Positions 9,227-64,000 of a stretch of DNA of 64,000 nt are shown here, piece by piece (the first letter of the stretch is position 1; every line of letters begins with the position of its first letter). The translations under genes and the position numbers were made by a program. The stretch spans positions 177,391-241,390 of the forward strand of contig NZ_BMGL01000003.1 in the NCBI RefSeq assembly GCF_014640175.1, given 5' to 3'. This DNA is from Psychroflexus salis. Lineage in GTDB: Bacteria > Bacteroidota > Bacteroidia > Flavobacteriales > Flavobacteriaceae. Below the pieces are notes generated by a model, which had not been told where the DNA came from, made no database searches, and was given only the letters and a program-made list of their open reading frames with translations.

Positions 9227-9672
9227 TTTCATTCAAGCTTATCATTGATATAAAACAAACTGAATACGATAAGCTTTGTGTATTCTGTGTCACTGCCTGC
9301 CGGCTGCCTGGTTTTTAGTTAAATAGAATTTATAGCAGGCACAAATAGCAAATACAAACTAAATTGTATATGAAAACCTTGCTAGAGTTAAGAAATAATT
9401 TATGCTTACAAAAGCTGAATTCAAGTCTCAAATGCAATTTAGCTGTAAAACAATATTTTTTTCCATTTTTTAAAAACAACAATAAATAATTCTCTAAAAA
9501 CAAAGCACCACTAATTTTAGCGGGCTTTTTTTGTTATTTTAACATTATATAAATTATTGAAGCAGAATTAATTGTTAGCCACAAGATGACGATACGTGTG
9601 AATAGATAAAAAATAACACGTGTAGAAAAAAATCTTATATTTTTTATATTAATTGTTTGAAGTCATAAAAAA
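9227..9672. other. 446-bp intergenic region with a GC-rich repeat fragment
   Basis: No gene seen. At about 9291-9310 there is ctgcctgccggctgcctg, related to the ctgcctttgccgacaggcag motif at about 10424-10443 on the other side of the toxin pair. The GC content of these short pieces stands out against the AT-rich surroundings; such motifs look like interspersed repeats and flank the antitoxin/PIN locus. Confidence 0.4.
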
Positions 9673-9913
9673 ATGAACATAAAACTCACTTTAACGATAG
9701 AGCAAGAAATCATTCAAAAGGCTAAAGAATACGCTAAAGATAAAAATAGGAGTTTATCTGATATTATAGAAAACTATTTAAAAATTCTAACAAATGCAGA
9801 AAAAGCTAAGGAACTAAAAAAAATTAAATCCTGTCGTAAAATCTTTAAAAGGTTCTTTTAAAATGCCTAAAAATATGGATTATAAAAAAGAACTCAGAAA
9901 CCGAGTAGAATAA
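9673..9913 (+). pseudogene. DUF6364-like antitoxin with a frameshift in an A8 run
   Basis: The ATG frame gives a ribbon-helix-helix-like start (MNIKLTLTIEQEIIQKAKEY, RSLSDIIENYLK) and then stops at 9861 after an atypical basic tail. One frame over, from about 9827 to the stop at 9911, the expected family tail is present: NPVVKSLKGSF, KMPKNMDYKKELRNRVE. Removing one A from the A8 run at 9816-9823 joins the two parts into an ~80-residue antitoxin. So the gene is broken by +1, is restored by slippage on the A-run, or carries a sequencing error. It sits 11 bp before the PIN gene, the normal antitoxin-toxin order. Confidence 0.75.
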
Positions 9914-9924
9914 AAGTATTTATA

Positions 9925-10347
9925 ATGGATAACGTGTTAATCGACACCGATGTAATATTGGATTTTTTCTTTGACCGTGAACCTTTTGTAGAATTTGCCA
10001 CAGAAATTTTAAATCAATGTGAAGATAGAAGAATAAACGGATTTACAACACCAGTTATAATCTGTAATGTTTATTATCTATTAAGAAAGACGGCAAATCA
10101 TCAATTGATTATAGAAAAACTAAAACAGCTTTTAAGCATAATTGAAATTACAGAAATGAACAAAGAAGTTGTCTTGGATGCTCTTAATTCAAAGTTTAAA
10201 GATTTTGAAGATGCATTGCAAAATTTTTCTGCTATTCAAAATAGAAAAATCAACATTATCCTAACCAGAAATATAAAAAATTTTAAAAAAAGCGGTTTAG
10301 CAGTATTGACCCCAGAAACATATTTGAAAGGAAAAGCTAGTGGCTAA
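9925..10347 (+). CDS. PIN domain (VapC-like) toxin with a changed active-site Asp
   Basis: 140 residues, a full-length PIN_3-type domain. The first acidic cluster is present (VLIDTDVILDFFFDREPF, Asp7), as is the central FEDALQ (Asp96). The last conserved Asp of the usual TRNIKDF motif is replaced by Asn119 (TRNIKNF). PIN toxins are Mg-dependent RNases that need these carboxylates, so activity may be reduced or lost. The upstream antitoxin is frameshifted, which fits a toxin that no longer has to be neutralised. The domain call is firm; inactivity is inferred. Confidence 0.85.
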   Translation: MDNVLIDTDVILDFFFDREPFVEFATEILNQCEDRRINGFTTPVIICNVYYLLRKTANHQLIIEKLKQLLSIIEITEMNKEVVLDALNSKFKDFEDALQNFSAIQNRKINIILTRNIKNFKKSGLAVLTPETYLKGKASG

Positions 10348-10492
10348 AAGCGCATATAGTTTATAGCGGAATTAGTGCTAAATCTAATTTTTTTGTATTT
10401 TAAAAACCTAAAAGCTTAATCTGCCTTTGCCGACAGGCAGGCTAAAAAAACCAAGCATTTTTGCCACCCACAAACCATATGCACGAAGCGTT

Positions 10493-11383
10493 CTACGAAC
10501 CTTTTTTCTGCTTTATCATCGCTTCTAGCATATCCCACATTTCATCAGGAATTTGCTCTAATAAATTGAATTGCCCAGCGCCTTTTAGCCATTCGCCACC
10601 ATCAATTGTAATCACTTCTCCATTTAAATAATGAGAAAAGTCAGATACTAAATAGGCTGCTAAATTGGCTAATTCTTGGTGGTCGCCAACGCGTTTTAAA
10701 GGCACTTTTTTAGCTAAATCGAATTTGTCTTTTAATTCGCCTGGCAGCAATCGATCCCAAGCACCTTTGGTAGGGAAGGGTCCAGGTGCAATAGCATTAA
10801 AACGAATACCGTATTTAGCCCATTCAACAGCTAATGAACGCGTCATCGCTAAAACACCTGCTTTAGCTGTTGCACTTGGAACTACATAAGCCGAACCGGT
10901 CCAAGCATAGGTAGTTACAATATTTAGCACGGTTTTATTGGTTTGTTTTTTATCAATCCAATATTTACCTAAAGCTAAAGTACAGTTTTTGCTGCCTTTT
11001 AATACAATATCTATAATGGTATCGAAGGCATTGGCAGATAAACGTTCAGTAGGCGAAATAAAGTTTCCAGCGGCATTATTGAGTAAAACATCAACTTCAC
11101 CAAAAGTTTCGTGCGCTTTTTTAAGCATATTTTCAACTTGGTCATAGTGCCGAACATCGCATTGGAGCGGTAAGCATTTGGCTCCAGTTTCAGTTTCTAA
11201 TTCTTTAGCTGTAGTTTCTAGTTTATCTAAATTTCTAGAAGTAATAACAGCGTTGGCACCTAATTCCATAAAATATTTGGTCATAGATTTTCCCAATCCA
11301 CTGCCACCACCAGTTACTAAAATTGTTTTGCCTTGAAGTGCGTTATCCCGCAACATTTTATCTGTATAACTCATAAATTTCAA
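10493..11383 (-). CDS. SDR family oxidoreductase, 2,4-dienoyl-CoA reductase-like
   Basis: 296 residues with a Rossmann fold. TGGGSGLGKSM is the NADP-binding loop and NNAAGNF the structural motif. The active region TAKAGVLAMTRSLAVEWAKY followed by IRFNAIAPGPF matches 2,4-dienoyl-CoA reductases (DECR/PDCR), which lack the classical YxxxK, rather than ordinary SDRs. The likely role is NADPH-dependent reduction of dienoyl-CoA during beta-oxidation of unsaturated fatty acids. The first Met or the second (MSYTDKM) may be the start. Its place near methylmalonyl-CoA mutase fits acyl-CoA metabolism. The exact substrate is inferred. Confidence 0.82.
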   Translation of the reverse strand: MKFMSYTDKMLRDNALQGKTILVTGGGSGLGKSMTKYFMELGANAVITSRNLDKLETTAKELETETGAKCLPLQCDVRHYDQVENMLKKAHETFGEVDVLLNNAAGNFISPTERLSANAFDTIIDIVLKGSKNCTLALGKYWIDKKQTNKTVLNIVTTYAWTGSAYVVPSATAKAGVLAMTRSLAVEWAKYGIRFNAIAPGPFPTKGAWDRLLPGELKDKFDLAKKVPLKRVGDHQELANLAAYLVSDFSHYLNGEVITIDGGEWLKGAGQFNLLEQIPDEMWDMLEAMIKQKKGS

Positions 11384-60300: not shown

Positions 60301-61515
60301 ATGAAAAAAACTGTAAAATTAGTTCCGCTGCAGCATCGAAACAAAAATAATATAGCTATACAGTTTGTATATGACTTAAAGATTAAGCAATGTATAATGA
60401 AGTTAGGTGCAAAATGGACCAAAACACATAAATGTTTTTATGTAGAAAGCACTTCTAAAAACAAACAAACTATTTATTATAATTTAAGGGATATTGGTTG
60501 TTATGTAGATTATTCGGCCATGCCAAAAAATCAATCTAAGATTTACTCTAAACCCATAGCTAAAGTTAAACCTAGAAATGAAGTTTCTAATTCAGTTATA
60601 GAAATGCCAAAAACTCACACGGATGCCTTGCAAGCTTTTGAAGATTATTTATTAGGGCAGCGCAAGAGTGCATCGACCATACATACCTACTCTAATTTTA
60701 TTCAATTATTTTTAAAATTTTATTCATCTAGAGAGTTATCAAGTTTAGATTTTCGCGATGTAGAGATATTTTTAGAGCAAGTTATGGCCAAGCGTGGTTA
60801 CAGTGTAAGTTCTCATAGGCAATGTATAAGTGGCTTAAAGCATTTTAGTAAGTTAGAGTTGGGTTTAAATTATGATCCTGATGATTTGTTTATGCCCAAA
60901 AAAGACAAAAAACTGCCAGTAGTTTTATCTTCTACTGAAATTGTTTTGATTTTGCGTGCAACTAAAAATTTGAAGCATCGTGCAATTATTGGTTTATTGT
61001 ATTCTTCGGGATTACGAATTGGGGAGTTATTAAAGTTACAATTAGGCGATTTAGATTTAGAGCGCAATGCTATTTATGTAAAACAAAGTAAAGGAAGGAA
61101 GGATCGGAATTGCACATTAGGGCATCGTATTCGGCCGATGTTATTAAATTATTCGCAAACTTACCAACCTAAGGTATATTTATTTGAAGGAGAGCAAGAA
61201 GGTACTCCATACAATGCTACATCTATACGTCAATTTTTAAAGCGCAGTTGTGCTGCGGCAAATATACAAAAGCACGTAACCCCGCATACTTTGCGGCATA
61301 CTTATGCTACGCATTTGTTAGAGAATGGGGTAGACATACGTTATATACAGGAGTTGTTAGGGCATTCTAGGCCAGAAACCACGATGATTTATACGCATGT
61401 AACCGAGCGTAAGATTAATGAGATTACTAACCCGTTGGATTCTGCGATACAGAAGTTTAACAAACTGGATAACGAAGCAGCAAACCCTCTGTTATACCGT
61501 AACAGTAATAAATAA
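60301..61515 (+). CDS. Xer/IntI-like tyrosine recombinase of the cassette array
   Basis: 404 residues. All catalytic residues are visible: Arg239 (SSGLRIGELL), Lys264 (QSKGRKD), His329-Arg332 (TPHTLRHTYATHLLENG), His355 (LLGHSRPETT) and Tyr364 (MIYTHV). A SAM-like core-binding domain spans ~103-190. Residues 1-100 are an N-terminal extension (IAIQFVYDLKIKQ, LGAKWTKTHKCFYV) not found in XerC/D or IntI. The end TTMIYTHV...ITNPLD resembles IntI (…SPLD), but the IntI-specific insertion before box II is not visible (only ~25 residues between LLNYSQ and SIRQFLK). It reads toward the cassettes and ends 28 bp before the first junction. I infer it recombines the attC-like sites. Confidence 0.85.
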   Translation: MKKTVKLVPLQHRNKNNIAIQFVYDLKIKQCIMKLGAKWTKTHKCFYVESTSKNKQTIYYNLRDIGCYVDYSAMPKNQSKIYSKPIAKVKPRNEVSNSVIEMPKTHTDALQAFEDYLLGQRKSASTIHTYSNFIQLFLKFYSSRELSSLDFRDVEIFLEQVMAKRGYSVSSHRQCISGLKHFSKLELGLNYDPDDLFMPKKDKKLPVVLSSTEIVLILRATKNLKHRAIIGLLYSSGLRIGELLKLQLGDLDLERNAIYVKQSKGRKDRNCTLGHRIRPMLLNYSQTYQPKVYLFEGEQEGTPYNATSIRQFLKRSCAAANIQKHVTPHTLRHTYATHLLENGVDIRYIQELLGHSRPETTMIYTHVTERKINEITNPLDSAIQKFNKLDNEAANPLLYRNSNK

Positions 61516-61552
61516 AAGTGTATATTTGTCTTGATATAACAAGTTGTACCGC
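61516..61552 (+). other. attI-like primary junction
   Basis: Between the recombinase stop and cassette 1 lies ataacaaGTTGTACCGC; the GTT core is at 61543-61545. No inverted-repeat partner is present on the left side, as expected for attI rather than attC. The crossover is placed between G61543 and T61544 by analogy with integrons. Confidence 0.65.
61521..61528 (+). promoter_or_regulatory. Pc-like candidate promoter reading into the array
   Basis: TATATTTG fits TAnnTTTG, directly after the recombinase stop and 15 bp before the first crossover point. A start of transcription near 61533 would serve cassettes 1-3, none of which shows a promoter box of its own. The -33 element is weak. Confidence 0.45.
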
Positions 61553-61565
61553 ATTAAAAATTATA

Positions 61566-62075
61566 ATGGATAAAAAAGTTATAGATAAATATTTTAATAT
61601 CGTTTTGTTGTCAGATAAAGACGATAGTTTTTTTGATTTATATGATATTTTAGTTTCAAAACATCTTAAAGTCGATACAAATGAAAATAGAAAATATTTT
61701 ATTAACTTAAAATCAGAAATAATTGAATTTGGAAAAAAAGAAGGGTATTTTAACCAATTTGATAGCGGACATTGTGAATTAACCGATAAAGGAAAATTAG
61801 CAAAGAAAAAAGGTGGACATAAAAAATATTTAAAATCCGAAAAAAAATACTGGCTGAATAAATACCAATCTATAAGTTTGTTTTTTGTCGTTTTTTTTGG
61901 TTTCATAGCTATTTATCAAAGGGGTGACAACAATTCTTATAAATCTGATTCTTATTCTCTAAATAATGAATATAATCACGCTGATTCTTTATCTGTTTCT
62001 CACCAAGAAAAAACAACAGAACAGCAAGAAAAAAAATTAAATGACTCATTAAACGCCAAAAGTTGGTCGGATTAG
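61566..62075 (+). CDS. Cassette 1 protein: small membrane protein of unknown function
   Basis: 169 residues from the ATG at 61566; an in-frame GTG at 61518 would lie across the integration junction and is rejected. Residues ~1-85 are soluble, with a winged-helix-like ending (GHCELTDKGKLAKKKGGHKK). One transmembrane helix follows (ISLFFVVFFGFIAIY), then a polar Ser/Asn/Gln/Glu tail. No known family recognised. The stop is 7 bp before the attC-like site. Confidence 0.75.
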   Translation: MDKKVIDKYFNIVLLSDKDDSFFDLYDILVSKHLKVDTNENRKYFINLKSEIIEFGKKEGYFNQFDSGHCELTDKGKLAKKKGGHKKYLKSEKKYWLNKYQSISLFFVVFFGFIAIYQRGDNNSYKSDSYSLNNEYNHADSLSVSHQEKTTEQQEKKLNDSLNAKSWSD

Positions 62076-62082
62076 AAAAAAC

Positions 62083-62222
62083 GCGGTACAACAGCGCATA
62101 ACAAAAATGGCTGAATTTGTGTAAAATTGATAGTATTTTCATATTTATAAAATTTAAAGTTTAACCGAAAGACTTGCGTATTTTAGCTCGCCACTTTCGT
62201 TATGCGCGAGACGTTGTACAAC
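62083..62222 (+). repeat. attC-like site 1
   Basis: Outer left arm GCGGTACAAC (62083-62092), inner arm GCGCATAAC (62094-62102) then AAAAATGGC; right side GCCACTTTC, GTTATGCGC (62199-62207, exact complement of the inner arm), GAGAC, and GTTGTACAAC (62213-62222). The spacer between inner and outer arm is 1 nt on the left and 5 nt on the right, the asymmetry expected of attC. The outer left arm pairs 10/10 with the start of cassette 1 but only 7/10 with the next cassette. Confidence 0.85.
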
Positions 62223-62229
62223 ATTTAAA

Positions 62230-62766
62230 ATGACCATCGCAAAAAAAATAATATTCGGAATTTTAATCTTAATCGGACTATTTATAGGCTGGATTATTTT
62301 TGGATTATTTGCAGAAGATTATGAAGAAACAAAATTTTATAATATTGAAATTCCTGATAAATTAAACTTTGAAAAACCTATTGAATTTCTGACAAATCAA
62401 CAAATAGATTCTCTGGAAAAAATAAAAGTTGACAATGAAAAAATTGTAATAATTGGGGATGGATATAGTGGTTATGACTTTTATATGTGGCATAAACCTA
62501 CCGAAAAAGGAGAAATTTATATTAAAGCGTACGAATTGACTCAAAACATACAATTATCGGAATGGAAGTTAAGTACTCGGACAAAAAACAAAATATCGGA
62601 ATTAAGCGATAACTATAAACTGTACGAAGGAAATACTGTCATTGACGAAGGAACTTTTGAAAACTACTATCCAACTCGATTTGAATTATGGTTTAAATCC
62701 GAAAGTTCTGGAATTGAAAAAAAACTGACTGAAAAAAATTATGTGATTGATGGTTGGGATAGATAA
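62230..62766 (+). CDS. Cassette 2 protein: membrane-anchored protein of unknown function
   Basis: 178 residues with one N-terminal helix (IIFGILILIGLFIGWIIFGL) and a ~150-residue domain probably outside the cytoplasm (IPDKLNFEKPIEFLTNQQID, IGDGYSGYDFYMWHKPTEKG). No family recognised. Starts 16 bp after the junction and ends 5 bp before the next site. No promoter seen, so it depends on upstream transcription. Confidence 0.75.
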   Translation: MTIAKKIIFGILILIGLFIGWIIFGLFAEDYEETKFYNIEIPDKLNFEKPIEFLTNQQIDSLEKIKVDNEKIVIIGDGYSGYDFYMWHKPTEKGEIYIKAYELTQNIQLSEWKLSTRTKNKISELSDNYKLYEGNTVIDEGTFENYYPTRFELWFKSESSGIEKKLTEKNYVIDGWDR

Positions 62767-62771
62767 AAAAC

Positions 62772-62910
62772 GTTGTACAACAATGTATAACCGCAATTAC
62801 GGCGGATTCGACTACGTCCGAATCCACTCGGAATTGCTAAAGCCTGTGATAAATCGAAAATTAACGCATATTAACCCGTAACTGACGGTTATACGAGACC
62901 GTTGTAGCAC
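62772..62910 (+). repeat. attC-like site 2 (different inner sequence)
   Basis: Outer left arm GTTGTACAAC (62772-62781); inner arm GTATAACCG (62785-62793) with exact complement CGGTTATAC (62886-62894), extending to ATTACGG/CCGTAAC with one unpaired base on the right. A second hairpin (GGATTCG/CGAATCC) lies inside. Right junction gagacc then GTTGTAGCAC. The left arm matches its own cassette start 10/10 and the next start 8/10. The middle differs completely from sites 1 and 3, so this cassette has a separate origin. Confidence 0.85.
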
Positions 62911-62913
62911 ATT

Positions 62914-63591
62914 ATGAAAAGACCGCTAAAAATAACATTAATAGTTATCGGAATTATATTTGGGATTTATACAGTACTAGGGCAAACTGATATGCTGAAA
63001 ATGTATAATATTCCGTCAACAGCGAACGAACCTGGAATAAAACTGAATTCAAGAATATTTGTCTCAAATTTAGCCAGTTATGAAAATGGCGACTTTATCT
63101 GTTATGAATACGAGAATGAAATGTTGGGAAAACACATAAGAGTTCATCGACTTTTAGGAAAAGCCAACGATACCATAGAAATCAAAGACGGAATTTTATT
63201 TATCAACGGACAGAATTTTGATCGAACTATAGATTTACAGCATTTTTACCTACTATATCCTGAAAAATTTCAAGAACTACTTAAAAATAAAATAATCACA
63301 AAAGAAGTCCAAGTATTCGATATTAATGATAAAATGATATTGACATTATTGGACAAAGTCGCAGAAAAAAATGGACTTTCTGGACAAATTATAATTGAAC
63401 CTAAAAATCAAGCCGACCAAATAATAAAAGAGATTTATAATCAGAATTGGAATATGGACAATTTCGGACCATTAAAAATCCCAGAAGGTAAGTGTTTTGT
63501 GATTGGAGATAACAGACACAATTCGGAAGATTCGAGATATATCGGACTGATTAACGAATCGGACATTGTTGGAACTGTGATAAAAAAATAA
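62914..63591 (+). CDS. Cassette 3 protein: S26 signal peptidase-like, His in general-base position
   Basis: 225 residues. N-terminal helix (ITLIVIGIIFGIYTVLG). Candidate nucleophile Ser35 in NIPSTANEPG. The base region reads VHRLLGKANDTIEIKDG, with His78 where bacterial type I enzymes have Lys (VKRIIGLPGD); ER-type SPases (Sec11, SipW) also use His here. The C-terminal box FVIGDNRHNSEDSRYIG is typical of S26A. A long insertion (~105-185) separates the boxes. It may cut a special set of exported proteins, or be a non-canonical form; catalysis is unproven. Confidence 0.78.
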   Translation: MKRPLKITLIVIGIIFGIYTVLGQTDMLKMYNIPSTANEPGIKLNSRIFVSNLASYENGDFICYEYENEMLGKHIRVHRLLGKANDTIEIKDGILFINGQNFDRTIDLQHFYLLYPEKFQELLKNKIITKEVQVFDINDKMILTLLDKVAEKNGLSGQIIIEPKNQADQIIKEIYNQNWNMDNFGPLKIPEGKCFVIGDNRHNSEDSRYIGLINESDIVGTVIKK

Positions 63592-63592
63592 C

Positions 63593-63734
63593 GTGCTACA
63601 ACAGCGCATAACAAAAATGGCGAATTTATTGCTTAAACGATAGATTTGTGTATTTTTAGAAAAGTATAAGTTTAACCGAAAAACTTGCGCATTTTAAGCT
63701 CGCCACTTTCGTTATGCACGAGACGTTAGGCAAC
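63593..63734 (+). repeat. attC-like site 3
   Basis: Outer left arm GTGCTACAAC (63593-63602), starting 1 bp after the gene's stop; inner arm GCGCATAAC (63604-63612); right GTTATGCAC (63711-63719, one mismatch), GAGAC, then GTTAGGCAAC (63725-63734). GTTAGGC is exactly the canonical GTTRRRY integron core. The left arm matches its own cassette start 10/10, but the next one only 5/10. The middle is closely related to site 1 throughout (aaaaatggc, gtttaaccgaaa, cttgcg, gctcgccactttcgttatgc). Confidence 0.88.
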
Positions 63735-63748
63735 ATTTGAAAAAAAAT

Positions 63749-63781
63749 TTTGCAAACATTCAAACATTTTACTTATCTTTG
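63749..63781 (+). promoter_or_regulatory. Promoter inside cassette 4
   Basis: TTTG at 63749-63752 and TATCTTTG at 63774-63781 with a 21-bp spacer fit the Bacteroidota promoter pair. Toxin-antitoxin cassettes typically carry their own promoter, and this one also has the long 80-bp leader that cassettes 1-3 lack. Confidence 0.7.
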
Positions 63782-63805
63782 GCGTTAGTAACGTAAAACA
63801 AAAAT

Positions 63806-64000
63806 ATGATTGTTTCTTTTCGCTCGAAAGAGACTGAACAAATTTGGAATGGAAATCGAGTAAAGAAAATTCCGATTGATATTCAAAAAATTGGACGCCG
63901 AAAATTGAGAATGTTGAATAATTCACAAAACATAGCTGATTTGAGAATTCCGCCATCGAACCGACTTGAAAAGCTAAGCGGAAATTTAAGTGGATTTTAC
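63806..64000 (+). CDS. higB: Cassette 4: HigB/RelE-type toxin (5' part)
   Basis: 65 codons are visible before the window ends. MIVSFRSKETEQIWNGNRVK, then IDIQKIGRRKLRMLNNSQ and DLRIPPSNRLEKLSGN follow the HigB pattern closely (…RRKLRMI…LRIPPSNRLE.LKG). HigB enzymes cut mRNA on the ribosome. In this family the toxin gene comes first and a HigA antitoxin gene should follow outside the window. Addiction modules are a common integron cargo that stabilises arrays. Confidence 0.85.
   Translation, partial: MIVSFRSKETEQIWNGNRVKKIPIDIQKIGRRKLRMLNNSQNIADLRIPPSNRLEKLSGNLSGFY

Follow-up and report, generated by a model that had tools for sequence, protein, structure and literature searches.

Layout of the cassette array

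The window, a 64,000-nucleotide stretch of the 2.87-Mb genome of Psychroflexus salis (C3:177391–241390), stops where its contig stops, at window base 64000. Near this end lies a gene for a tyrosine recombinase, followed by an attachment site, attI, and by gene cassettes with sites of the attC type. The features of the array, all on the + strand, are as follows.

60301..61515, +: tyrosine recombinase of 404 residues, reading toward the cassettes; Phage_integrase and SAM-like core-binding domains, without the additional (I2) domain of IntI
60301..60534, +: extra N-terminal domain of the recombinase (residues ~1–78), predicted beta-beta-alpha-beta-beta-alpha-beta fold, faint XPB damage-recognition/HARP likeness
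61492..61545, +: attI, comprising TTATACCG at 61492 (TATCCnG in relatives), TATATTTG at 61521 and the core GATATAACAAGTT at 61533–61545, with a predicted crossover at G/TT
61543..62222, +: cassette 1, starting GTTGTACCGC; open reading frame (ORF) 61566–62075, without a Pfam or NCBIfam match; attC 62083–62222
62083..62222, +: attC of cassette 1; R″ 62083–62092, and R′ 62213–62222, which is part of cassette 2
62213..62910, +: cassette 2; ORF 62230–62766, without a Pfam or NCBIfam match; attC 62772–62910
62901..63734, +: cassette 3; ORF 62914–63591 (signal peptidase I family); attC 63593–63734
63725..64000, +: cassette 4, starting GTTAGGCAAC; ORF from 63806; truncated at the contig end

We are fairly confident that this region is the integrase-proximal end of an integron-like array obeying what we term the own-start rule, by which the attC of each cassette carries the complement of that cassette's own 5′ end, and that the adjacent Xer-type recombinase, which has no I2, is the enzyme likely to capture and excise the cassettes.

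Complementarity of cassette starts and sites

The original prediction of the rule was founded on three pairs in the window, GTTGTACCGC at 61543 with GCGGTACAAC at 62083, GTTGTACAAC at 62213 with GTTGTACAAC at 62772, and GTTGTAGCAC at 62901 with GTGCTACAAC at 63593. All three are present at these coordinates and each is complementary at 10 of 10 positions. Against the neighbouring downstream junction the same arms match by eye at 8, 8 and 5 of 10 positions; the original values of 8 and 5 stand, while the original 7 for the remaining arm does not. The own site of cassette 4 is not traceable in the window because the contig stops first. It had nevertheless been predicted from the cassette start, and in the homologue of this cassette on contig C18, which begins with the same GTTAGGCAAC, the own site at C18:12887 starts as expected with GTTGCCTAAC.

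We built a covariance model, R1, on 34 sites taken from this genome and from relatives. Run over 28 sources it returned 240 matches, a number that includes antisense twins, cut-off sites and the duplicates shared by the window and L011. From these, 212 full-length sites on the array strand were retained and 180 consecutive units, with gaps of at most 4 kb, were tested. The rule, expressed as at least nine of ten complementary bases, held in 157 of the 180 units; the actual downstream junction matched at this level in nine, and random pairing in 2.7%. Addition of 56 further sites gave 268 (261 unique) and 205 units with GTT and AAC at both anchors. Identity at all seven of positions 4–10 was found with the own start in 115/205 units, against 2/205 for the downstream junction. 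Agreement with the own start is 90–100% at positions 1–9, 65% at position 10 and 80–85% at positions 12–14, whereas shuffled agreement is 27–63% at positions 4–10 and 12–14. The complementarity of arm and own start thus extends to base 14, interrupted at base 11, which is A in all 205 starts and faces C in 154/185 arms. R boxes are described as seven bases in passages of PMC2727003 and PMC7370490; the 14-base arm exceeds this length, the canonical length being known here from papers only. Arrays beside eight IntI genes were sought as a canonical yardstick for the 14-nucleotide arm, and none was usable.

Two closed relatives, searched with an nhmmer profile, yielded 90 and 98 matches on a single strand only, of which 88 and 93 could be anchored, in arrays of ~77 kb each. 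The rule holds at nine or more of ten bases in 77/86 and 85/90 of their units, and A is found at base 11 in 85 and 89 units, respectively (174/176). The misses, 23/180 in the larger survey and 9/86 and 5/90 in the closed genomes, include several long gaps. One of the 23 contains an overlooked short site of 72 nucleotides, recognition of which splits the unit into two that obey the rule; some of the remainder look like decay. Sites are confined to one strand in the arrays examined, and the longest ORF runs in the direction of the array in 176/194 units.

Unit boundaries and attI

Near-identical, non-adjacent duplicate cassettes (99.8–100%) occur within single arrays of relatives. In three of four such pairs the duplication extends through attC and on its right side breaks off immediately beyond GTT; for the fourth, L068, an indel disrupts the comparison. 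On the left, similarity before GTT in L060 and L068 does not reach beyond the conserved terminal part of the upstream attC, while the two L065 pairs are uninformative because their preceding attCs are themselves alike. The best reading is that each unit was once a circle closed at GTT, as originally proposed. From the junctions and duplications we infer a crossover at G/TT.

The last bases of the recombinase gene lie within attI, which continues past them; its recurring parts are TATCC.G, a TATATTTG-like stretch and GATATAACNNGTT. It was counted in 47 integrase loci, made up of 12 relatives' loci (kept of 30) and 35 named loci. Of these, 34 have the core, 11 lack it and 2 are too short, against a background of 0.006 per 140 nucleotides. 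All 34 are among the 40 closer loci (L025–L110); none of the seven more distant loci (L111–L117), two of which are too short, has it. TATCCnG lies exactly at −50 from GTT in 24/34 attI sequences. The stop codon of the integrase gene is found 16–76 nucleotides upstream of the core, and since the attI spacing is kept while the position of the stop codon varies, we regard attI as a DNA element and no coding accident. A candidate promoter motif, TAnnTTTG, occurs in 15/34 attI (background 2% per 40 nucleotides), and TATATTTG resembles the Bacteroidota −7 box. In the loci of named relatives, 18 of 35 contain sites, 59 altogether, and every one is 3′ of the integrase gene, on the same strand as the gene.

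Fold of the sites and strand preference

The sites share a conserved R″–L″–L′–R′ fold with AAC/GTT cores and an unequal unpaired spacer, the features by which attC is recognised. Across 150 aligned sites 94.1% of the cells are paired, compared with 74.4% after shuffling, the alignment having been fitted to the structure. Covariation is 0.488 (0.132 shuffled; no more than 0.098 in slid versions) and cells with double changes number 459 (166 shuffled); two of the five measures are unremarkable.

Strand preference was analysed in 185 rule-obeying units, 20 of the 205 having been dropped. Of 1850 R-arm cells, a count that leaves out base 11, 1705 are Watson–Crick pairs, 34 are A·C and 2 are G·T on the top strand, and 109 are other. 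For the L box, counted in 251 of the 261 sites, A·C again outnumbers G·T (268 versus 65, with 82 other). A·C on the top strand is a G·T wobble on the bottom, and such wobbles therefore predominate on the bottom strand. Conserved T·G pairs of this kind, A opposite C on the top, stand in both the R and the L arms, and part of the sites also have a one-base column. These differ in layout from the extrahelical bases of canonical attC, published as T-N6-G (PMC3053210).

With DNA energies, the bottom strand of the closed-circle form is predicted to be more stable than the top in 184/185 units, by 4.0 kcal/mol on average. The corresponding figure is 161/185 for the array form and 76/185 for a random-segment control. 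The bottom-strand hairpin made with the own start is, moreover, predicted to be more stable than that made with the neighbour's in 179/185 units (mean 6.5 kcal/mol), in agreement with closure of a circle. The original claim of a real cassette system is thus upheld by the own-start rule across arrays, by the energies of own closure and by duplications that end at GTT.

The recombinase

The RKHRHY catalytic residues (R239, K264, H329, R332, H355 and Y364) are the same in all of the 12 integrases aligned. An I2-type insertion is absent from all 12. Positions 181–243 of the IntI4 chain have no aligned counterpart in the window enzyme, and positions 180–238 of the profile TIGR02249 are unmatched. 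The window enzyme scores 206.8 bits against TIGR02249, below the curated cut-off of 265; four relatives score 192–213 and six canonical IntIs 404–506. By its sequence it falls outside the definition of IntI in the literature. Its best profile match is NF040815 (XerA), at 214.2 bits under the curated cut-off of 220, which two of the four relatives pass (L049, 220.6; L113, 232.2) and two fail (L028 and L117); its best fold matches are 5hxy and 4a8e. The XPB/HARP likeness of the N-terminal domain is faint and we do not claim homology. The genome holds three further recombinase genes.

A phylogenetic tree puts the window clade (100/100) apart from IntI (100/99). Eight rows of the tree are labelled IntI, six of which were scored against the cut-off, with L134 and L151 labelled by likeness only. 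The approximately unbiased (AU) test does not reject IntI and the window clade as one group (p 0.198). On this account we treat an independent origin of the enzyme as a possibility, not as a result. A second Bacteroidota recombinase clade (99/98), represented by L113 and L114, has arrays of sites 3′ of the gene and is without the common attI core; its attI looks different.

The integrase relatives were obtained by an alignment-query scan, a single-protein query of genome contigs having given none. Among named relatives, the nearest integrase belongs to Psychroflexus aurantiacus (52%), and Flavobacteriaceae account for many of the rest. Internal stops are absent from 29 of the 30 best integrase matches, the window's included, and present in many more distant homologues.

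Distribution

Sites were found in 167 of 199 sampled genomes of the family Flavobacteriaceae, the counts per genome being lower bounds because only 16 candidates were scored in each. An integrase at E ≤ 1e-40 is present in 125 of the 199; sites occur in 121 of these 125 and in 46 of the 74 without it (p 2e-10). No canonical IntI above the cut-off was detected in 100 sampled family genomes, with positive controls recovered in 4/4. Across the phylum, scanned with a model trained mostly on the family, sites occur in 29/148 genomes, which by listing order are 12/15 in the family and 17/133 outside it. Plasmids gave 62 records at E ≤ 1e-40 (best identity 37%).

Cassette 2 has an attC of a type to which closely similar sites occur in other genera; in phages, this attC had no blastn match. 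The covariance model does find sites in Polaribacter phage P12002L (best E 3e-9). Several sites of this lytic phage lie around DNA-modification genes (L178, 30002–39716), and A is at base 11 in 8/8 starts. Among seven consecutive pairs, one matches at 10/10, one at 9/10, two at 8/10 and three at only 5–6/10. Both strands give equal counts, and the genes are oriented opposite to the sites, so that this phage is no guide to orientation.

Other features of the genome and window

Further pieces of array in the same genome lie on contigs C17, C18 and C19, while C7, C8 and C11 carry sites singly or in pairs. The homologue of cassette 4 occupies C18:12223–12494 (91% identity). Of 24 cassette ORFs of the genome compared with Pfam, two match Gp49 and one each HepT, Fic, signal peptidase, GDSL lipase and others; there is one strong PADLOC candidate, PDC-S04. 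The Gp49-like (two), HepT-like, Fic-family and PADLOC-candidate ORFs are among the cassettes of L012, L013 and L014, and we claim no trend.

On C8 (L016, C8:150001–160000, array strand −) two sites whose own starts match at 13/13 positions stand behind an attI-like stretch (TATATTTG...GATATTAATA-GTT). A TIGR02249 search found no recombinase on this contig, and L016 is possibly a second, orphan array start. Solitary sites at window 10339 and on C7 have a decayed appearance. Far from the array, the former belongs to a probable solitary cassette that is likely dead. This and two other features of the window are given below.

9574..10499, +: probable solitary cassette, decayed; start GTTAGCCACA at 9574 (10/13 positions), site 10339–10499, AAC of R″ changed to AAA
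16983..17198: cobalamin riboswitch, 95.5 bits
56669..57187: tandem repetitive stretch whose frames are repeated HPLGPGQQKxFKQKSKTFKNLL-like units; probably no gene

Proposed mechanism and alternative explanations

As far as sequence can tell, the system acts like an integron, of a variant that is new and common in Flavobacteriaceae. In the mechanism we propose, the recombinase would act on attC in its folded form, cutting the bottom strand at the GTT box, and the excised circle would close G to TT. The circle would then pair best with its own R″, and this most stable hairpin would be the best substrate. On re-insertion of the circle at attI the neighbour's start would take the place of the own start in R′. 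The strand for use may be marked by the conserved T·G wobbles that the bottom strand has at position 11 of R and in its L arm, with the XPB/HARP-like N-terminal domain as a candidate hairpin reader in place of I2. A promoter inside attI could drive the first cassettes. More broadly, we give about an even chance to the proposal that the Xer-type enzyme of Flavobacteriaceae integrons never had I2 and reads the bottom strand through T·G wobbles and the XPB/HARP-like domain, not through bulged bases; such integrons, as a surviving pre-I2 stage or an independent invention, would have escaped surveys that require the additional domain of IntI.

The simplest competing account is an ordinary integron of the known family, in which the recombinase is a divergent IntI, its I2 lost or never required, and works by the same mechanism. 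The logic of attI, attC and cassette is indeed identical, the AU test allows the two groups to be one, and an integrase that reads toward attI is known in Treponema (passages of PMC3607928). The account must, however, accommodate a profile score well short of the IntI cut-off, with its gap at positions 180–238, a clade that stands apart from IntI in the tree, and arms whose complementarity reaches base 14 around A at position 11, canonical arms being taken here as papers describe them; we think it possible but unlikely. Alternatively, a canonical IntI that escaped detection might move the arrays in trans, and the Xer-like gene beside them would be a bystander. Sites do persist in the 46 genomes without a close integrase, and phage P12002L bears sites of the present type; IntI1 recombines one published P12002L attC (passages of PMC9892861), possibly one of our model matches. 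Yet no IntI above the cut-off was found in the 100 sampled family genomes, integrase and sites co-occur, and attI adjoins the Xer-type enzyme at a conserved spacing, and we judge this account quite improbable.

The array could also be a fossil, formerly mobile and now fixed. The decayed-looking solitary sites and the internal stops of many more distant integrase homologues would fit, but nearly all of the best integrase matches, the window's among them, are free of such stops, the catalytic residues are invariant and relatives hold near-identical duplicate cassettes that are not adjacent. We regard fixation as improbable and the cassette system as probably still active, in line with the original proposal of present or recent activity. 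Mimicry of attC by other hairpin repeats, such as terminators or repetitive extragenic palindromic (REP)-like or retron-like DNA, is barely credible: the sites are quasi-palindromic and intergenic, as those repeats would be, but duplications end at GTT and attI adjoins the integrase. The terminator or REP reading in particular was rejected because each arm is complementary to the distant end of its unit and not to its own right arm. We retain the reading of an integron-like array that is likely served by its adjacent recombinase.

Relation to known systems

Passages of PMC7790495 and PMC4792948 state that integron integrases gained single-strand recombination through the acquisition of I2, and that I2 is required for cassette capture and present in no other protein; PMC7790495 also notes a lack of evolutionary intermediates, which the present system may provide. 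An I2-less integron with sequence signs of bottom-strand folding makes the I2-acquisition account directly testable, and integron evolution could be tested with a likely cassette-moving enzyme devoid of a part thought indispensable. Gene cassettes that are abundant but have drawn little notice would also join the known pool, and the own-start rule offers a simple, consensus-free check for cassette systems.

Our search of open-licence papers found no publication on Flavobacteriaceae integrons of the present kind. Integrons are known outside Proteobacteria, including in archaea, and Bacteroidota are among the phyla named as having them (passages of PMC9668308 and PMC9024848). The archaeal IntIs are reported with the additional domain (PMC9668308, in part). 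According to portions of the IntegronFinder 2.0 paper, only In0 elements had earlier been detected in Bacteroidetes, and one complete integron is named, that of Salinibacter ruber (PMC9024848). A 2008 survey chose intI by the additional domain or the intI patch (PMC2426708, in part). Passages of PMC8138268 describe the insertion as incompletely conserved in an integron-like subgroup; enzymes without it have thus already been seen, although those passages tie none to arrays. Sites resembling attC, associated with Flavobacteriaceae or unassigned, have also been published, as the cluster of attC sites lacking integron integrases (CALIN) of phage P12002L (PMC9892861) and the OTH-22-1 motif (PMC8632094); the passages concerned link to them no recombinase or chromosomal array of the present kind.

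Treponema integrons share the orientation of the integrase toward attI, but their enzymes are treated as intI in the relevant passages of PMC3607928; we set them apart by description, not by sequence. The Xer chromosome-resolution recombinases, including XerA, give the best profile and fold matches of the window enzyme, which departs from them by its place next to attI and an array of cassettes and by its extra N-terminal domain. The overall resemblance is to canonical integrons, exemplified by IntI1 and by VchIntIA with its Vibrio cholerae repeat (VCR) arrays. In both, attI adjoins a tyrosine recombinase; cassettes mostly hold one ORF and share one orientation; the sites have the R″–L″–L′–R′ layout with AAC/GTT cores, an unequal central spacer and an energetic preference for the bottom strand; and arrays may be long, as in the two relatives with 88 and 93 sites. 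The present system differs in an enzyme that lacks I2 and carries the extra N-terminal domain, in a gene that reads toward the cassettes, in conserved A·C mismatches, T·G on the bottom strand, and, by comparison with arms as described in papers, in complementarity to base 14 about a near-invariant A at base 11.

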